This document shows, in pieces, positions 5,064-59,075 of a DNA stretch of 64,000 nt. The stretch lies in contig NZ_JADQBH010000049.1 in the NCBI RefSeq assembly GCF_016278715.1, forward strand, positions 1 to 64,000, written 5' to 3'. The DNA is from Marinilabilia sp. Lineage in GTDB: Bacteria; Bacteroidota; Bacteroidia; Bacteroidales; Marinilabiliaceae. Each line of letters opens with the position of its first letter. Positions within the stretch are counted from its first letter, which is position 1. Under the pieces are notes generated by a model, which was not told the origin of the DNA, did not search any database, and worked only from the letters and a program-made list of their open reading frames with translations. Made by a program: the position numbers and the translations under genes.

Positions 5064-5285
5064 TTTAAGTAGAATCCCTTTCTCTAAAGTTAGTTGATGC
5101 TTTTGAATTGTTTAAAATAAACTTTTAGGCACAGATGCTTTTTTTCTAAAACGCAAACACTCAAAACTGCTCATTTAAAAGGCATTGCTTTTCCTCCTTG
5201 CGAGCATTACAGCTGTATTCCCCTTTTTACCACTGATTTCTGATCTTGTTTTTCGCCGGCCACCTGGTTTAACAGCAACGACCTA

Positions 5286-5386
5286 CGAGCCAAGAGCTAA
5301 CAGCTAAGAGCTAACAGCTAACAGCCAAGAGCTAACAGCCAAGAGCTAACAGCTAAGAGCTAAGAGCTAACAGCTAAGAGCTAAAA
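5286..5386. repeat. Degenerate 7-bp tandem repeat (AGCTAAC/AGCTAAG/AGCCAAG)
   Basis: About 13 consecutive heptamers read directly. Confidence 0.9.
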
Positions 5387-5389
5387 AGG

Positions 5390-32825: not shown

Positions 32826-33078
32826 CGGCAATTATTTTCTTCAATTTTACTTCTTTGGAAAATAAAGCTAAAAAAGTTAATTTTACTATTAGAATTAAAC
32901 TAACCACTATGTTCCAAAAACCTTTTTCAAGCCCTGCTCGCCCATACAATTTCTTCAAAGAAAAATGCTTTTTAGAAATGTTCCCGTTTTCAAAACCTTT
33001 TCATTTAGAACTGAACTATTCACCTTTTAAAACAAAGGATTAATAACAGTCCCTAGGTGCATTTATAATATAGCTGGG
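32826..33078. repeat. Boundary repeat R1 (direct repeat of 37001-37273)
   Basis: tttggaaaataaagctaaaaaagttaattttactattag...aactaaccactatgttccaaaaacctttttcaagccctgct...aataacagtccctaggtgcatttataatatagctg. Confidence 0.8.
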
Positions 33079-33130
33079 ACATTAAAACGGACATAACCGA
33101 TAAACCGATAAACCGATAAAATTTACCATT

Positions 33131-33857: not shown

Positions 33858-34015
33858 GCCACAACAAACCATCTTAGCTCAAAGTTGTGGACTGGCGATA
33901 AAAAATTAAGTGTAGGATTAAAAAAGAAAAAATATTTCAGAACAATATCGACAAATGAATTGTATGATTTATTCATTGAGAAGGAATTACGAAAGAAAAG
34001 AACCTAATTTCATAC
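33858..34015 (+). pseudogene. 3' fragment of a PIN-domain toxin gene, near-identical to the end of 37680-38141
   Basis: NHLSSKLWTGDKKLSVGLKKKKYFRTISTNELYDLFIEKELRKKRT matches the C-terminus of the PIN ORF; homology continues into the downstream repeat. Confidence 0.9.
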
Positions 34016-34077
34016 GATAATACTATCAGATCCTTAGGACAAATAGAATAAAAAAACACACATGCCGAAGAATAAAA

Positions 34078-34227
34078 CGGTGAGCAACAAAGCTGTGATA
34101 CGCCAGCCATGCCATCCACTGCATATTGAGGGCTTCGTTTTACCTTCTCACATGCGTTCAAACTGATAAAATCAAAGCTGGTCTGAGTGCCCCAGGCAAG
34201 GTGAATGTAGCCAGGTCGTTTGGAACA
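34078..34227 (+). repeat. attC-like cassette repeat A
   Basis: ggtgagcaacaaagctgtgatacgCCAGCc...GCATATTGAG...CTCACATGC...aGCTGGtctgag...gtagccaggtcGTTTGGAACA. Confidence 0.7.
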
Positions 34228-34252
34228 ATTTAACAAAACGCATACACAGATA

Positions 34253-34951
34253 ATGAACAGACTTGACAGACTAACCAGCATTCTCATACAACTTCAATCA
34301 AAACGACTGATTACCGCTCGTGAAATAGCTGGACGATTTGAAGTTACAAACAGGACCATTTACAGAGATATTCAAACATTAAGACTTGCGGGTGTTCCAA
34401 TTGGTGAAGAAGAAGGAAAAGGTTATTTCTTAGTTGAAGGCTATCGGTTGCCTCCCGTAATGTTTACAACCGAAGAAGCAAGAGCTTTGATAACAACTTG
34501 TAAAATATTAAACTATCATACCGAAGATTCCCTTAAAAAAAATTACGAATCGGCACTTTTGAAAATAAAGGCAGTTTTATCACCCAATGACAAAGAAAAA
34601 TTAGAATTTCTGGATTCAAGAATCGGATTTCAAAAATCCTGGGCACCTACAAGTTTGTATTTAGACAGTATCCAGAATTCAATTACAGAAAGCGAAAAAC
34701 TGAAAATAAAATATCAGTCAAGAGGAGAAGAGCAAATTACAGAACGAACAATTCGACCTTACGCCGTTTACTTTAGCGGTGCTGTTTGGACAACTATTGG
34801 CTTTTGTGAGTTACGACGAGAAATAAGAGAGTTTCGGCTTGACAGAATAAAAGAACTCAAAATTCAACAAACTCATTTCAAACCCGACAAGACTTTCAGC
34901 ATTGAACACTATTTAGAAGAACGTTCAAAAAGATTATTTTTAAACCCCTGA
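34253..34951 (+). CDS. YafY-family transcriptional regulator (HTH_11 + WYL)
   Basis: RLDRLTSILIQLQSKRLITAREIAGRFEVTNRTIYRDIQTLRLAGVPI...RPYAVYFSGAVWTTIGFCELRREIREFRLDRI. Confidence 0.92.
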   Translation: MNRLDRLTSILIQLQSKRLITAREIAGRFEVTNRTIYRDIQTLRLAGVPIGEEEGKGYFLVEGYRLPPVMFTTEEARALITTCKILNYHTEDSLKKNYESALLKIKAVLSPNDKEKLEFLDSRIGFQKSWAPTSLYLDSIQNSITESEKLKIKYQSRGEEQITERTIRPYAVYFSGAVWTTIGFCELRREIREFRLDRIKELKIQQTHFKPDKTFSIEHYLEERSKRLFLNP

Positions 34952-35007
34952 CAAAAGGCTGTCCTATGTGCCTTTTATCTTTGTTTCAAATTCAAACAAA
35001 AAGGAAT

Positions 35008-35883
35008 ATGAAAGCAATTTTTTTTATCGTCATTGCTTCACTTTTAGGAAGTTTAAGCGAGGCACAAACACCAAAAGGCATGACAGCAAAACAAATCACA
35101 ATCAGAGACAAACAAGTTGAAATCAATTATTTTCAACAGGGACAAGGCGACACAACAGTTTTGTTTTTACACGGTTGGTGTATTGACGGAACTTATTGGA
35201 AGAATCAAGTAGAATATTTTTCTCAAAATTACAGTGTTTATGCAATTGACCTACCGGGATTTGGCAAATCAAAAGCCGAAAGAACCAATTGGACCATTGA
35301 AGAATATGCCAACGATGTAACAGCATTTATTGACACCATGAACCTTAAAAATGTTGTAATCATTGGACATTCTATGGCAGGTGAAATTATGCTACAAACC
35401 GCATTAACCAACAATCCAAGAATTGTCGGAGTTGTAGGTGTTGACAATTTCAAATTTATTGACGTTGAATTTACACCGGAACAGATGAAACAAATGACCG
35501 ATTTTTTTCCTATGCTTGAAAAGGATTTTAAAAATTCGGCACCGGCATATGCAGATATGATGCTTTTTCACCCAACAACATCCAGGGAAGTGAAAGACAG
35601 AGTAAAAACTGATTTTGCAAATAGCGATTCCGTTATTGGCTATGGAGCATTTATGAACCTAATGCAATACGCATCGACTGAAGCACAAAGATTAGAACAG
35701 CTTAATTACAAGTTGTATTTAATAAACAGTGACAGTTTTTCAATAAACGAAACCGGACTGAAAAACCATTGTAAAAATGGTTTTCAAGTGGAGACTATCT
35801 CTGCAACGGGACATTATCCAATGATAGAAAAACCCACAGAGTTTAATTTAATATTAGAAAATTTGTTGAAAGGAATGATTTAA
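35008..35883 (+). CDS. Alpha/beta hydrolase
   Basis: VLFLHGWCIDGTYWKNQ, VVIIGHSMAGEI nucleophile elbow, ATGHYPMIEKP His. Confidence 0.92.
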   Translation: MKAIFFIVIASLLGSLSEAQTPKGMTAKQITIRDKQVEINYFQQGQGDTTVLFLHGWCIDGTYWKNQVEYFSQNYSVYAIDLPGFGKSKAERTNWTIEEYANDVTAFIDTMNLKNVVIIGHSMAGEIMLQTALTNNPRIVGVVGVDNFKFIDVEFTPEQMKQMTDFFPMLEKDFKNSAPAYADMMLFHPTTSREVKDRVKTDFANSDSVIGYGAFMNLMQYASTEAQRLEQLNYKLYLINSDSFSINETGLKNHCKNGFQVETISATGHYPMIEKPTEFNLILENLLKGMI

Positions 35884-36020
35884 ACTACTGCTGGCAGTCG
35901 GTCGGAAAATATTGGGGGTTAGATGTTTGGCTATGCGTATCACTCGCTGATAATGGTCGTTCGGTTGATAGGTTCGTATCTCAGCAACCCCAAAATTTCA
36001 TTTTGTCAAACGTTGAACGC
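35876..36020 (+). repeat. attC-like cassette repeat I (different subtype)
   Basis: TGATTTAAAC...TTGGGGGTT...AACCCCAA...aaacGTTGAACGC; internal 8-bp stem 35912-35920/35986-35993. Confidence 0.7.
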
Positions 36021-36378
36021 AAGCCAGACAACCATCCTGCAAAAGCTAATTTGTATAAATTGCTTTTATGAGGATGATGAATTGATTGGTTATGGAGTTA
36101 AGTTCAAAAAGAATGGGGTATACGCGAATGTTCATTTGATTAAGCTCAATACAAGTACAGGCCAATTTAGTGCTGGATTTGCTAACGGAGGATTCCTGAC
36201 TAATAAAGTAGAAGTATATGCAGAGAATAAATGGATTGATAAAAAAATGTTGATTTTCGAAGCAAAAGATGAGCTAGAAATGCTTGAGGATAAATATATT
36301 TTGAAAGGGGAAGAAAAATTAATGTCAGCTAAAAATGAGGTAATTGAAGCAGCTGAATTCATAATACATTTAGAATAA
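36021..36378 (+). CDS. Hypothetical cassette protein (start uncertain)
   Basis: ORF 35923-36378 overlaps repeat I; the plausible coding part ends INCFYEDDELIGYGVKFKKNGVYANVHLIKL... . Confidence 0.45.
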
Positions 36379-36403
36379 ATTTATTTTTGAAAAGATAAAG
36401 CCA

Positions 36404-36547
36404 GCGTTTAACTATGCTATCATTCTCCAGCCGCGGCATTCACAGCGTATTGAGGACTTCGTTTTACTTCTCACATGTTTTTGGGCTGATAAATTCACGG
36501 CTGGACCTAAGGCCACGCCCAGAACCGTATTGCCGGGAAGTTGGGAC
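36404..36547 (+). repeat. attC-like cassette repeat B
   Basis: GCGTTTAAC...TCCAGCCG (36426-36433)...CGGCTGGA (36498-36505)...gaaGTTGGGAC. Confidence 0.7.
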
Positions 36548-36591
36548 AAACCCGGAAAATGACCGTACAATGAATTGTTGTACTTACCGGG

Positions 36592-37000: not shown

Positions 37001-37273
37001 AAGAATTGCAGTCCTTTTTTGGAAAATAAGTCAAAAAAGTTAATTTTACCATTAGCACCAAACTAACCACTATGTCCCAAAAACCTTTCTCAAGCCCTGC
37101 TTACCAATTCCATTTCTTCAAAGTTAAATACTTTTTGGGAATGTCCCGTTTCAGAATACCATTTCATATTTCCAAAACTATTTCACAAAACTTCCTAATT
37201 GGAACTTAGTCGGGCAACTGCTGTCATTATGCAAGGTAAATAACAGTACATAGGCGCGTTTATTTTATAGCTG
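37001..37273. repeat. Boundary repeat R1' (direct repeat of 32826-33078)
   Basis: ttttggaaaataagtcaaaaaagttaattttaccattag...aactaaccactatgtcccaaaaacctttctcaagccctgct...aataacagtacataggcgcgtttattttatagctg. Confidence 0.8.
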
Positions 37274-37476
37274 CCCACCATTTAAAATACGATGTAGTTT
37301 GGAAATCCCCATAAAACAGAAAAAACGCTTTAAAATTTCATTGTAGCAAATGAATTGATAATGAAATGATTTCAGATGGATAGTTTATGGAAATGATTGA
37401 AAACATCTAACGGGCAACAAGAAAAACGACGCCAATCTCCAGTGAATTTTGTATATTTAAGGAAAATGAATCGCTT

Positions 37477-37680: not shown

Positions 37681-38141
37681 TGAAAATAGTCGTTGACTCA
37701 AATATTGTTTTTAGTGCCATCCTAAATTCACAGGGGAAAATTGCACAATTAATCATAAACGGTTCAAAATATTTTTCCTTTTTCAGCGTAAGTCTGCTTA
37801 AAGAAGAAATTCTTAATCATAAAGATAAACTACTATCTATTTCGGGATTAACCGAAACTCAGTTTGAATCTTCCTTTTCTCATATTGCTTCAAGAATAAA
37901 ATTCGTTGATGAAATCTTGATTTCCGACCAAGATTTGGAAAAAGCCACGAGATTAACTAAAGATATCGATGAAAATGATATTTTGTTTGTCGCTCTGACA
38001 AACCATCTTGGCTCAAAATTGTGGACTGGCGATAAAAAATTAGGTGTAGGATTAAAAAAGAAAAAATATTTCAGAACAATATCGACTAATGAATTATATG
38101 ATTTATTCATTGAGAAGGAATTACGAAAGAAAAAAACCTAA
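37680..38141 (+). CDS. PIN-domain toxin (putative toxin-antitoxin system component, COG1569-like)
   Basis: MKIVVDSNIVFSAILNSQGKIAQLII...LTKDIDENDILFVALTNHLGSKLWTGDKKL. Confidence 0.88.
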   Translation: MKIVVDSNIVFSAILNSQGKIAQLIINGSKYFSFFSVSLLKEEILNHKDKLLSISGLTETQFESSFSHIASRIKFVDEILISDQDLEKATRLTKDIDENDILFVALTNHLGSKLWTGDKKLGVGLKKKKYFRTISTNELYDLFIEKELRKKKT

Positions 38142-38210
38142 TTTCATACTATAATACTATCAGATTATTAAGACTAATAGAATTAAAAAACACATACCGA
38201 GGAATAAAAC

Positions 38211-38355
38211 GGTGGGCAACAAAGCTATATACACCAGCCGGGGTATCCACAGTATATTGAACGTTTCGAATTACTTTTTCACAGGCGTTCATTCTATTAA
38301 TTTCACAGAGGGTCTGAATGCCACCTCCGGGGCATTTTGCCGAGCGTAGTAGGCT
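38211..38355 (+). repeat. attC-like cassette repeat C (3' end unclear)
   Basis: GGTGGGCAACaaagctatatacaccagccggggtatccacagtatattgaacg...ttcacaggcgttc. Confidence 0.6.
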
Positions 38356-50019: not shown

Positions 50020-50285
50020 GGAATGAAACCGTTAACCTTTTTGGAAAAAGGGAACAAAAAGTTAATTTTACGGGAAGCAAAATCATTTTAAAACAAGAAA
50101 TAAATTGATTGCCCAGCCCCACATATTGTTTAAAGGAAATTTGAACTTCCCCGCATCAGCAGGAGGGGGAGTGATTGATAAGGTTTAGAAAGGTGTACAA
50201 TGCATTCGGAATTTGGATGTTTTGTGCACCTTTTGTTTTTATAAGGGGAGTATAGGGGCACTTTGGTGGGGTTATAGAAGTGTTG
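50020..50285. repeat. Boundary repeat R2 (direct repeat of 56749-57021)
   Basis: ttttggaaaaagggaacaaaaagttaattttacgg...aattgattgcccagccccacatattgtttaaaggaaatttgaactt...gtgattgataaggtttagaaaggtgtacaatgcattcgg...tatagaagtgttg. Confidence 0.88.
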
Positions 50286-50331
50286 TGCGGCATGCAAGGA
50301 AACGTAGTACAAACCTTAAACTAACTGAAAA

Positions 50332-51284: not shown

Positions 51285-51427
51285 CCGCACAACAATCTGT
51301 ATACGCCATCCGGGTCTCCACAGCATATTGCAAGCTTCTTTTTACCTTGCTACCCGCTCACGGTTTGACACAATCTTATGGGGTTTGAAAGCCCCGGCCT
51401 GACGCATACGGCCGAGACGTTGGGGAC
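51285..51427 (+). repeat. attC-like cassette repeat D
   Basis: CCGCACAACaatCTGTATACGccat...gaCGCATACGGccgagacGTTGGGGAC; outer arms partly pair (CTGTATACG/CGCATACGG). Confidence 0.78.
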
Positions 51428-52087: not shown

Positions 52088-52230
52088 GTCCCCAACAAAA
52101 ATATATACGCCAGCCTTAGCATCTACCGCATATTGAGAGTCTCATTTTCCCCGCTCGTATGCGTTCACGCTGATTAAGTCACAGTTGGTCCGAAAGGGGC
52201 GGGAGGTGGATGTAGCCTAAACGTTCGAAC
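52088..52230 (+). repeat. attC-like cassette repeat E
   Basis: GTCCCCAACaaaaatatatacgccagcc...gcatattgag...tcgtatgcgttc...gtagcctaaacGTTCGAAC. Confidence 0.78.
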
Positions 52231-52257
52231 ACAAAAAACAAGCCGGGATAAACATAC

Positions 52258-56748: not shown

Positions 56749-57021
56749 TTCAGCAATGAAATCGGTAATCTTTTTTGGAAAAAGAAAACAAAAAAGTTAG
56801 TTTTACAGCAACCAATAACACTCTAAAACCAAAAACAAATTGATTGCCCAACCCCATATACTGTTTAAAGAAAATTTGAACTTTCTCGTCCCAACGGGAT
56901 GGGGAGTGATTGATCAGACATAGAAAGGTGTACAATGCATTCGGGATTTGAATGTTTTGTGCGCCTTTTGTTTTGATAAGGGGAATATAAGCGCACCTTG
57001 GTGGGGGTATAGAAGTGTTGG
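56749..57021. repeat. Boundary repeat R2' (direct repeat of 50020-50285)
   Basis: ttttggaaaaagaaaacaaaaaagttagttttacag...aattgattgcccaaccccatatactgtttaaagaaaatttgaactt...gtgattgatcagacatagaaaggtgtacaatgcattcggg...tatagaagtgttg. Confidence 0.88.
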
Positions 57022-57171
57022 GGCCAAGGTGGAAAAATTAGATAATTCACTATTAAAGAGTGAACAAGTAAGAGTGTACTTATGATTAAAAATATATTAT
57101 TAATCAAAATTGCTTCCAATTTGAACATTACCCAAATATTGGATTGGAAATGAAAACAAAACAAAAAAAAC

Positions 57172-57699: not shown

Positions 57700-57707
57700 A
57701 TTAAAAC

Positions 57708-57846
57708 GTCTTACAATAAAGCTATGATACGCCAGCTGTGTCACAGAAAATTGAGGGTTTAGTTTTACCCTCTCCCATGCGTTCAAACTGATAAAATCAG
57801 TGCTGGCGGGAAAAGCGCTTGGGGGGGTAGCGGGGACCTTTCAACA
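57708..57846 (+). repeat. attC-like cassette repeat F
   Basis: caataaagctatgataCGCCAGC (57730-57736)...tcccatgcgttcaaactgataaaatcagtGCTGGCG (57802-57808). Confidence 0.65.
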
Positions 57847-58642: not shown

Positions 58643-58927
58643 ATGAAAAAAACTAGCTTAATAAACTTTTGTGGCAATTTTGGAACTGTATTATTGATCA
58701 TTGCAGCAATTTTTATGATTCAGCACTATCCTTTTCACAATGAATTAATGACAATTGGACTTCTATCATTTGCAGTTTTCTGGATTTGGATACTAATTAA
58801 AATATTTAGAGCCCACCAACCATTAAACTATAAAACTGGCTGGACTATTTTTGTTTTGTTTATTCCAATAGTCGGATCCTGGGTTTATTATCATTTGGAA
58901 TTAAAAAAATTAAACAATTTGCAATAA
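58643..58927 (+). CDS. Small membrane protein, PLDc_N-like
   Basis: 94-aa ORF; TGWTIFVLFIPIVGSWVYYHLELKK. Confidence 0.6.
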   Translation: MKKTSLINFCGNFGTVLLIIAAIFMIQHYPFHNELMTIGLLSFAVFWIWILIKIFRAHQPLNYKTGWTIFVLFIPIVGSWVYYHLELKKLNNLQ

Positions 58928-59075
58928 GGCTGTGATACACCGACCGCATCATCCACTCCATAATGCGGGTTTTGTTTTAGCCTCTCACATGCTTTCTGGA
59001 TCATAAAGTCACAGATGTTCAGAAAGCCATCGCCAGGTGCAAATTGCAGGGGAGCTAAATGCATTGTTCGAATTA
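58921..59075 (+). repeat. attC-like cassette repeat G
   Basis: gcaataaggctgtgatacaccgaccgcatcatccactccataatgcgggttttgttttagcctctcacatgc...cattgttcgaatt. Confidence 0.6.

Follow-up and report, generated by a model that had tools for sequence, protein, structure and literature searches.

Integrons, including the sedentary chromosomal integrons, combine a tyrosine recombinase gene with an adjoining attI site and a tandem, single-orientation array of cassettes, whose ends carry complementary R'' and R' boxes with a GTT motif; the attC sites form hairpins with paired L boxes, with an optional extra base in L''. They are searched for and counted by their integrase, IntI. The available part of one article credits the I2 insert of IntI with having made single-strand recombination possible, and leaves open how integrases came to act on single-stranded substrates (eLife 2020; PMC7790495). 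In the 'Integron-like subgroup' of tyrosine recombinases, conservation of the insertion is incomplete, according to the accessible text of Smyshlyaev et al. (2021; PMC8138268). The accessible text of PMC9024848 credits the Bacteroidetes with few integrons, namely a complete one in Salinibacter ruber M1 plus In0. The features listed above, that is, recombinase gene, attI-like site, oriented cassettes, complementary boxes and hairpin attC sites, recur in the system described here, part of which lies in a stretch of 64,000 nucleotides of Marinilabilia sp. (positions 1 to 64,000 of contig NZ_JADQBH010000049.1, assembly GCF_016278715.1; hereafter the window). We put at about 0.85 the probability that positions 34218-36412 of the window belong to an integron-type cassette array served by a tyrosine recombinase that lacks the IntI insert.

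The region opens with an attC-like site of the repeat family D1 (site A, 34080-34226; this and all other sites, cassettes, genes and leaders given for the window are on the forward strand), which scores 155.9 bits with R1, a covariance model built from the seven D1 sites of the window. Its R'' box GTGAGCAAC lies at 34080-34088 and its R' box GTTTGGAAC at 34218-34226. The cassette that follows (34218-35895) holds a gene for an HTH_11/WYL transcriptional regulator of YafY type (34253-34951; PF13280, PF08279) and one for an alpha/beta hydrolase (34966-35883; PF00561). Next comes site I (35887-36020), with a decayed R'' box ACTGCTGGC at 35887-35895 and an R' box GTTGAACGC at 36012-36020; alignment with sites in L084, G038, G010 and, from the same genome, C306 places it in a lineage other than that of A and B, as had been proposed. 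A second cassette (36012-36412), whose small open reading frame matched no family in a Pfam scan, leads to attC-like site B (36404-36548; 136.2 bits; R'' GCGTTTAAC, R' GTTGGGACA).

The original prediction, made from the letters alone, had read this region as two consecutive mobile cassettes of mixed origin with complementary boundaries from A to I and from I to B. The four boundary strings stand at the positions it gave, and its pair counts were reproduced (7 Watson-Crick pairs, 2 G.T and 1 mismatch for A to I; 8 pairs and 1 G.T for I to B). The I-to-B pair (36012-36020 with 36404-36412) is a genuine boundary; its register is precisely that of cassette ends, GTT plus six bases against six bases plus AAC, and an equally good partner was found in none of 2,000 shuffled 60-nt zones. 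The A-to-I pair did not hold, since alignment of 20 right ends and of the I-type sites ruled it out: TGATTTAAAC at 35876-35885 is the conserved end of the hydrolase gene, where relatives have ATGAAATAAACTGCTGCTAAC just before their box GCTGCTAAC, and with 60 nt of register freedom a fixed 10-mer did equally well in 3.8% of shuffles. The homologue of that box is ACTGCTGGC, in which AAC has become GGC. The left end of the YafY-hydrolase cassette had thus been placed correctly at 34218, and its right end about 10 nt too early. The ends of this cassette have decayed in the window copy; its right box has lost AAC and pairs with GTTTGGAAC at only 3 Watson-Crick and 2 G.T of nine positions. What survives of the prediction is the succession of two mobile cassettes of mixed origin; it contained neither the attI-like leaders, nor a recombinase other than IntI, nor a variable hairpin.

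Sites of family D1, about 140 nt long, lie 3' of genes in the window. The covariance model found 13 of them in the genome itself and located the family in 13 of 119 genomes of relatives, the window's own included; the alignment used here holds 112 sites over 69 loci. Boundary complementarity was measured on all consecutive same-strand D1 pairs less than 3.6 kb apart with both boxes readable (36 pairs, from the window and relatives). When the right box of one site was compared with the complement of the left box of its successor, 5.47 of the seven bases after GTT matched, vs 2.74 ± 0.21 for shuffled partners (0 of 20,000 as high), whereas the complementarity inside one site was 2.50 vs 2.20 (88 sites; 65 of 5,000 as high). 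Because the match is strong between neighbouring sites and hardly present within a site, the complementary boxes belong to the cassette and not to the hairpin, which is the signature of integrons. In the window, the cassette between sites D (51285-51427; 119.6 bits) and E (52088-52231; 126.0 bits) illustrates it, the R' box GTTGGGGAC at 51419-51427 having its exact partner, nine of nine, at 52088.

The D1 hairpin is likewise seen in its covariation. A structure of 27 pairs was paired in 87.0% of cells over the 112 sites, vs 21-43% when slid by 1-3 columns, although the 87.0% is biased towards the one aligned sequence from which the structure was drafted. Both sides had changed in 118 cells vs 46 after shuffling, and two pairs of the L boxes covary strongly (A-U in 63 and G-C in 33 sites; C-G in 65 and G-C in 9). 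Paired L boxes were found in D1 sites and in integrase-linked sites alike. The L'' box of D1 sites can hold an extra base, and extrahelical bases are a known feature of attC sites.

The attI-like leaders are repeats of about 250 nt, of families D3 and D6, that open the array blocks. The one at 50038-50290 carries an R' box GTTGTGCGG at 50282-50290, with its exact complement CCGCACAAC (nine of nine) at the start of site D; two leaders of C306 match the site that follows at nine of nine as well. Leader 2 of family D6 (37017-37280) ends in GCTGCCCACC, which faces GGTGGGCAAC of site C at nine of ten positions as compared by eye. A further exact leader pair was seen in a genome of the same genus (L140 8335-11814, G004:C22), where a 3.6-kb cassette running from an attI-like leader to an attC-like site, with ends complementary at nine of nine, holds a SIR2-HerA defence pair (516 and 839 bits in PADLOC). 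Four leaders (50038-50290 and 56772-57024 in the window, 2146-2401 and 6239-6486 in C306) are conserved over 250 nt at 76-84% and have a terminator-like hairpin 5' of the attI part, and they could possibly encode a small RNA transcribed from a promoter of its own.

In relatives, the integrase gene is linked to attI and attC. An insert-less integrase gene lies directly upstream of an attI and the D1 family in two genomes of the same genus and several of the same family. Behind three such recombinases, a GTT box is complementary to the box of the next hairpin at 9-10 bases, and in G001, G004, G031, G038 and G043 the integrase gene stands just upstream of a D1 site on the same strand, and the box of that site complements the attI box exactly over 9-10 bases. 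An exact 9-bp partner downstream of the integrase was present in 27 of 34 cases vs 7.9 expected, 13 of 47 integrases having been excluded for too little sequence. Elsewhere in the phylum, exact attI-to-attC partners numbered 21 of 27 vs 3.5 expected, and the upstream control gave 3 of 30 (2.2 expected). At equal lengths of 1.7 kb, 40 of 57 integrase genes had downstream a GTT box that was complemented exactly over 9 bp ahead of the next hairpin (6.3 expected), vs 9 of 67 upstream (4.7 expected). The hairpin after the partner beat the mean of its own shuffles in 38 of 42 cases and often closed at 116-118 nt, and an inverted repeat tended to precede the attI GTT (score 5.7 vs 4.0 shuffled; 40 of 54). 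In relatives, therefore, an attI-type site with a GTT insertion point adjoins the integrase; the leaders of the window have no adjoining integrase.

The recombinase of these relatives is a tyrosine recombinase without the IntI insert of about 40 residues. The IntI model picked it up by matches to its two ends, not to positions ~181-238, and 42 alignment columns are occupied in at least 80% of 22 canonical IntI proteins but in no more than 15% of 72 insert-less ones. With a profile built from five of the proteins, 58 of the 119 relatives reached 250 bits or higher, 10 of them among the 13 that have D1 sites. In Pfam the insert-less proteins matched PF00589 and PF13495 (the latter below cut-off in one of five), and PDB matches placed XerA-type proteins first and IntI4 third. 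NF040815 (XerA; 'site-specific tyrosine recombinase/integron integrase') was the best NCBIfam model for all five scanned, at 204-224 bits with a cut-off of 220; it describes an archaeal XerA type, and the N-terminal part and the linked sites of the insert-less proteins lie outside it. Between that N-terminal part and the HARP family there is a weak similarity, seen in 3 of 10 fragments (E 0.003-0.06, each below the Pfam cut-off), which would hint at a substitute for the handling of single-stranded DNA. In a tree made by a quick method, with 55 of 96 rows kept and a root that rests on two long Xer rows, 15 IntI proteins formed one clade (100) inside a paraphyletic insert-less set, and a branch of 86 united IntI with a 700-aa type and L325; no direction is claimed for the change in the insert. 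Compared with integrons, then, the integrase lacks the IntI-specific domain, has another N-terminal part and is encoded in the orientation of the cassettes, several orphan attI-like leaders occur in one genome, and the hairpin behind the YafY cassette varies between genomes. Compared with the 'Integron-like subgroup', the cassette arrays make the difference, as the available part of PMC8138268 ties the insertion to integron function and shows none for members without it.

Other recombinases were considered as the enzyme of the arrays, namely XerC/XerD, the tandem recombinases of C299 and the integrase of C321, and none was seen beside an attI-like leader. The C321 integrase gene is about 190 nt from a D1 site and in the opposite direction. 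This site (L029 163-314), beside an integrase gene of conjugative transposon (CTn) type, is broken between its R'' and L'' boxes, a pattern that suggests integration of a mobile element into the attC.

The spread of the YafY-hydrolase cassette bears on the unit of movement. The outcome that would have refuted the original prediction did not arise, as the unit recurs in other genomes: the YafY regulator is encoded in 25 records from several Bacteroidota groups and a few bins labelled as other phyla, with homology breaking at the cassette ends. In the 24 loci that include the left end (L081 is truncated at this point), DNA homology to the window begins at 34208-34253. Of the 21 loci that extend as far as the right end, 20 lose the homology at 35847-35892; in L084 alone it continues to 36001, and this locus shares the I-type hairpin with the window. 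A reading in which only the gene moves, as a GTT-AAC module exchanged apart from the attC interior, via both R boxes or by a swap of hairpins, draws on the right flanks. The comparison covered 20 of the 25 loci plus the window (210 pairs), and in all nine pairs whose YafY modules are 94-98% identical, the next 120 nt after the box were identical at 0.54-0.64 only, at or near shuffled values; over the 210 pairs, flank identity exceeded the shuffled maximum by more than 0.05 in four. At least six clear and distinct hairpins follow one and the same box, as judged by eye. For the YafY module, the attC thus appears not to have stayed with the gene. This pattern is clear for one cassette only, however, and the attC did travel with its gene elsewhere: in G016, the PIN cassette keeps 93% identity over the greater part of site C, cassettes shared between G004 and G001 and between G001 and G031 are 95-97% identical including their sites (coordinates compared by eye), and the window and L084 share the related site I. 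We regard movement of the gene alone as less likely than not, though as the strongest of the alternatives considered. Little was found of the other window cassettes in a sample search of 296 phylum genomes with two candidates scored per genome.

A second alternative is an ordinary cluster of attC sites lacking integron integrases (CALIN), in which the cassettes were left behind by a canonical IntI that either worked in trans or has since disappeared, the insert-less recombinases being unrelated neighbours. The window arrays have no integrase beside them, no canonical IntI exceeded the cut-off in the genome, and the seven D1 sites surpass the two attC sites by which a CALIN is defined, as judged here from covariance-model sites and the IntI cut-off rather than from IntegronFinder. 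Canonical IntI does exist in the phylum: of 395 genomes drawn, 105 have one that exceeds the cut-off, and 103 have the insert-less type (E up to 1e-90); yet among the carriers listed from this draw, the class of the window held one IntI and 48 insert-less carriers. IntI was also over cut-off in none of the 13 genomes with D1 sites, in one of the 119 relatives and in just one of 20 YafY-carrying genomes. Unlike a CALIN, moreover, the arrays have attI-like leaders, and in relatives the same attC family is accompanied by an integrase, whose gene immediately precedes attI and attC far more often than expected by chance. We regard a CALIN left by IntI as improbable. Least plausible by far are repetitive extragenic palindromes (REP) or miniature inverted-repeat transposable elements (MITE) interspersed 3' of genes, with ends complementary by chance, for while the sites are dispersed and palindromic, their complementarity is specific to the cassette between neighbours, and in 25 records the boxes mark the limits of gene homology.

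Several observations weigh against an integron-type array with an insert-less recombinase. The genome of the window shows no such integrase in an assembly that is 94% complete in 326 contigs. Only 4 of 16 leaders tested have an exact partner, plus one at 8 of 9, and the leader at 56772 has none. The steps from A to B and from B to C in the window score one of seven, with site I and a leader intervening. Some of the 27 matches among 34 integrases are AT-rich boxes of a kind expected by chance. Finally, when the YafY boxes were paired within each locus, they matched no better than shuffled pairs (9 of 18 usable; 505 of 5,000 as high), because most loci share one ancestral box.

On the integron-type reading, an array starts at an attI-like site, the leader ending just 5' of a GTT box; each cassette is a gene with GTT plus six bases at its left and the reverse complement, six bases plus AAC, at its right; and attC-like hairpins of ~120-145 nt separate the cassettes. 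The IntI-related recombinase without the insert would probably insert and excise cassettes at the GTT boxes. The anatomy of the arrays, their complementary boundaries, the covariation of the hairpin, the spread of the cassette and the linkage between integrase, attI and attC are observed directly, while the chemistry of recombination, the strand used, present activity and the cutting of the sites by the insert-less enzyme are inferred. Because the assembly shows no insert-less integrase gene, the arrays of this genome are orphans, either relics or served in trans. In its anatomy the system works like an integron; judged by IntI it falls outside that group, because its integrase lacks the defining domain and the genome of the window shows no integrase. 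It seems to be an integron-type system with all its parts, with an insert-less integrase, and common in Bacteroidia. That it constitutes a second class of integron, common in that class, in which an integrase without I2 recombines hairpin attC sites whose interior can be exchanged independently of the gene, is a tentative proposal that we hold at somewhat less than even odds. If the anatomy is read correctly, cassette capture would be widespread in Bacteroidia and overlooked for want of the IntI insert, and natural insert-less integrases would be available for the question of how integrases shifted to single-stranded substrates; a separate, little-known branch of a main bacterial gene-swapping system is suggested. 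A literature search that covered no preprints and few subscription papers, and is thus weak evidence of novelty, returned no title or abstract on insert-less integrases with cassette arrays in Bacteroidota.

Leader 1 of block 1 (family D6) lies at 32854-33090. Site C (38212-38344; 127.6 bits) is 3' of a PIN-domain cassette (PIN_2), and a truncated copy of the tail of this cassette (33864-34060 vs 37998-38194, 94% identical) precedes site A. The truncated copy abuts a SIMPL cassette directly after the R'' box; in G031 and G016 the SIMPL cassette is followed by its own D1 site. The leader at 56772-57024, 84% identical to that at 50038, has its box GTTGGGGCC at ~57016-57024, and sites F (57706-57845; 122.1 bits) and G (58914-59061; 134.0 bits) lie downstream. 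In C306 (L028 10360-11691) and at other loci, attC boxes seem to be the precise insertion points of an IS3-like element; its recurring terminal letters are an R'' ending TTTAGTTCAAC in L034, L142, L148 and L180 and an R' GTTGTTGCGACA in L142, L164, L165 and L175. An Rfam scan gave tRNA as its sole match, and an intergenic segment at 5257-5389 consists of a tandem array of 7-mers (AACAGCT / AAGAGCT).
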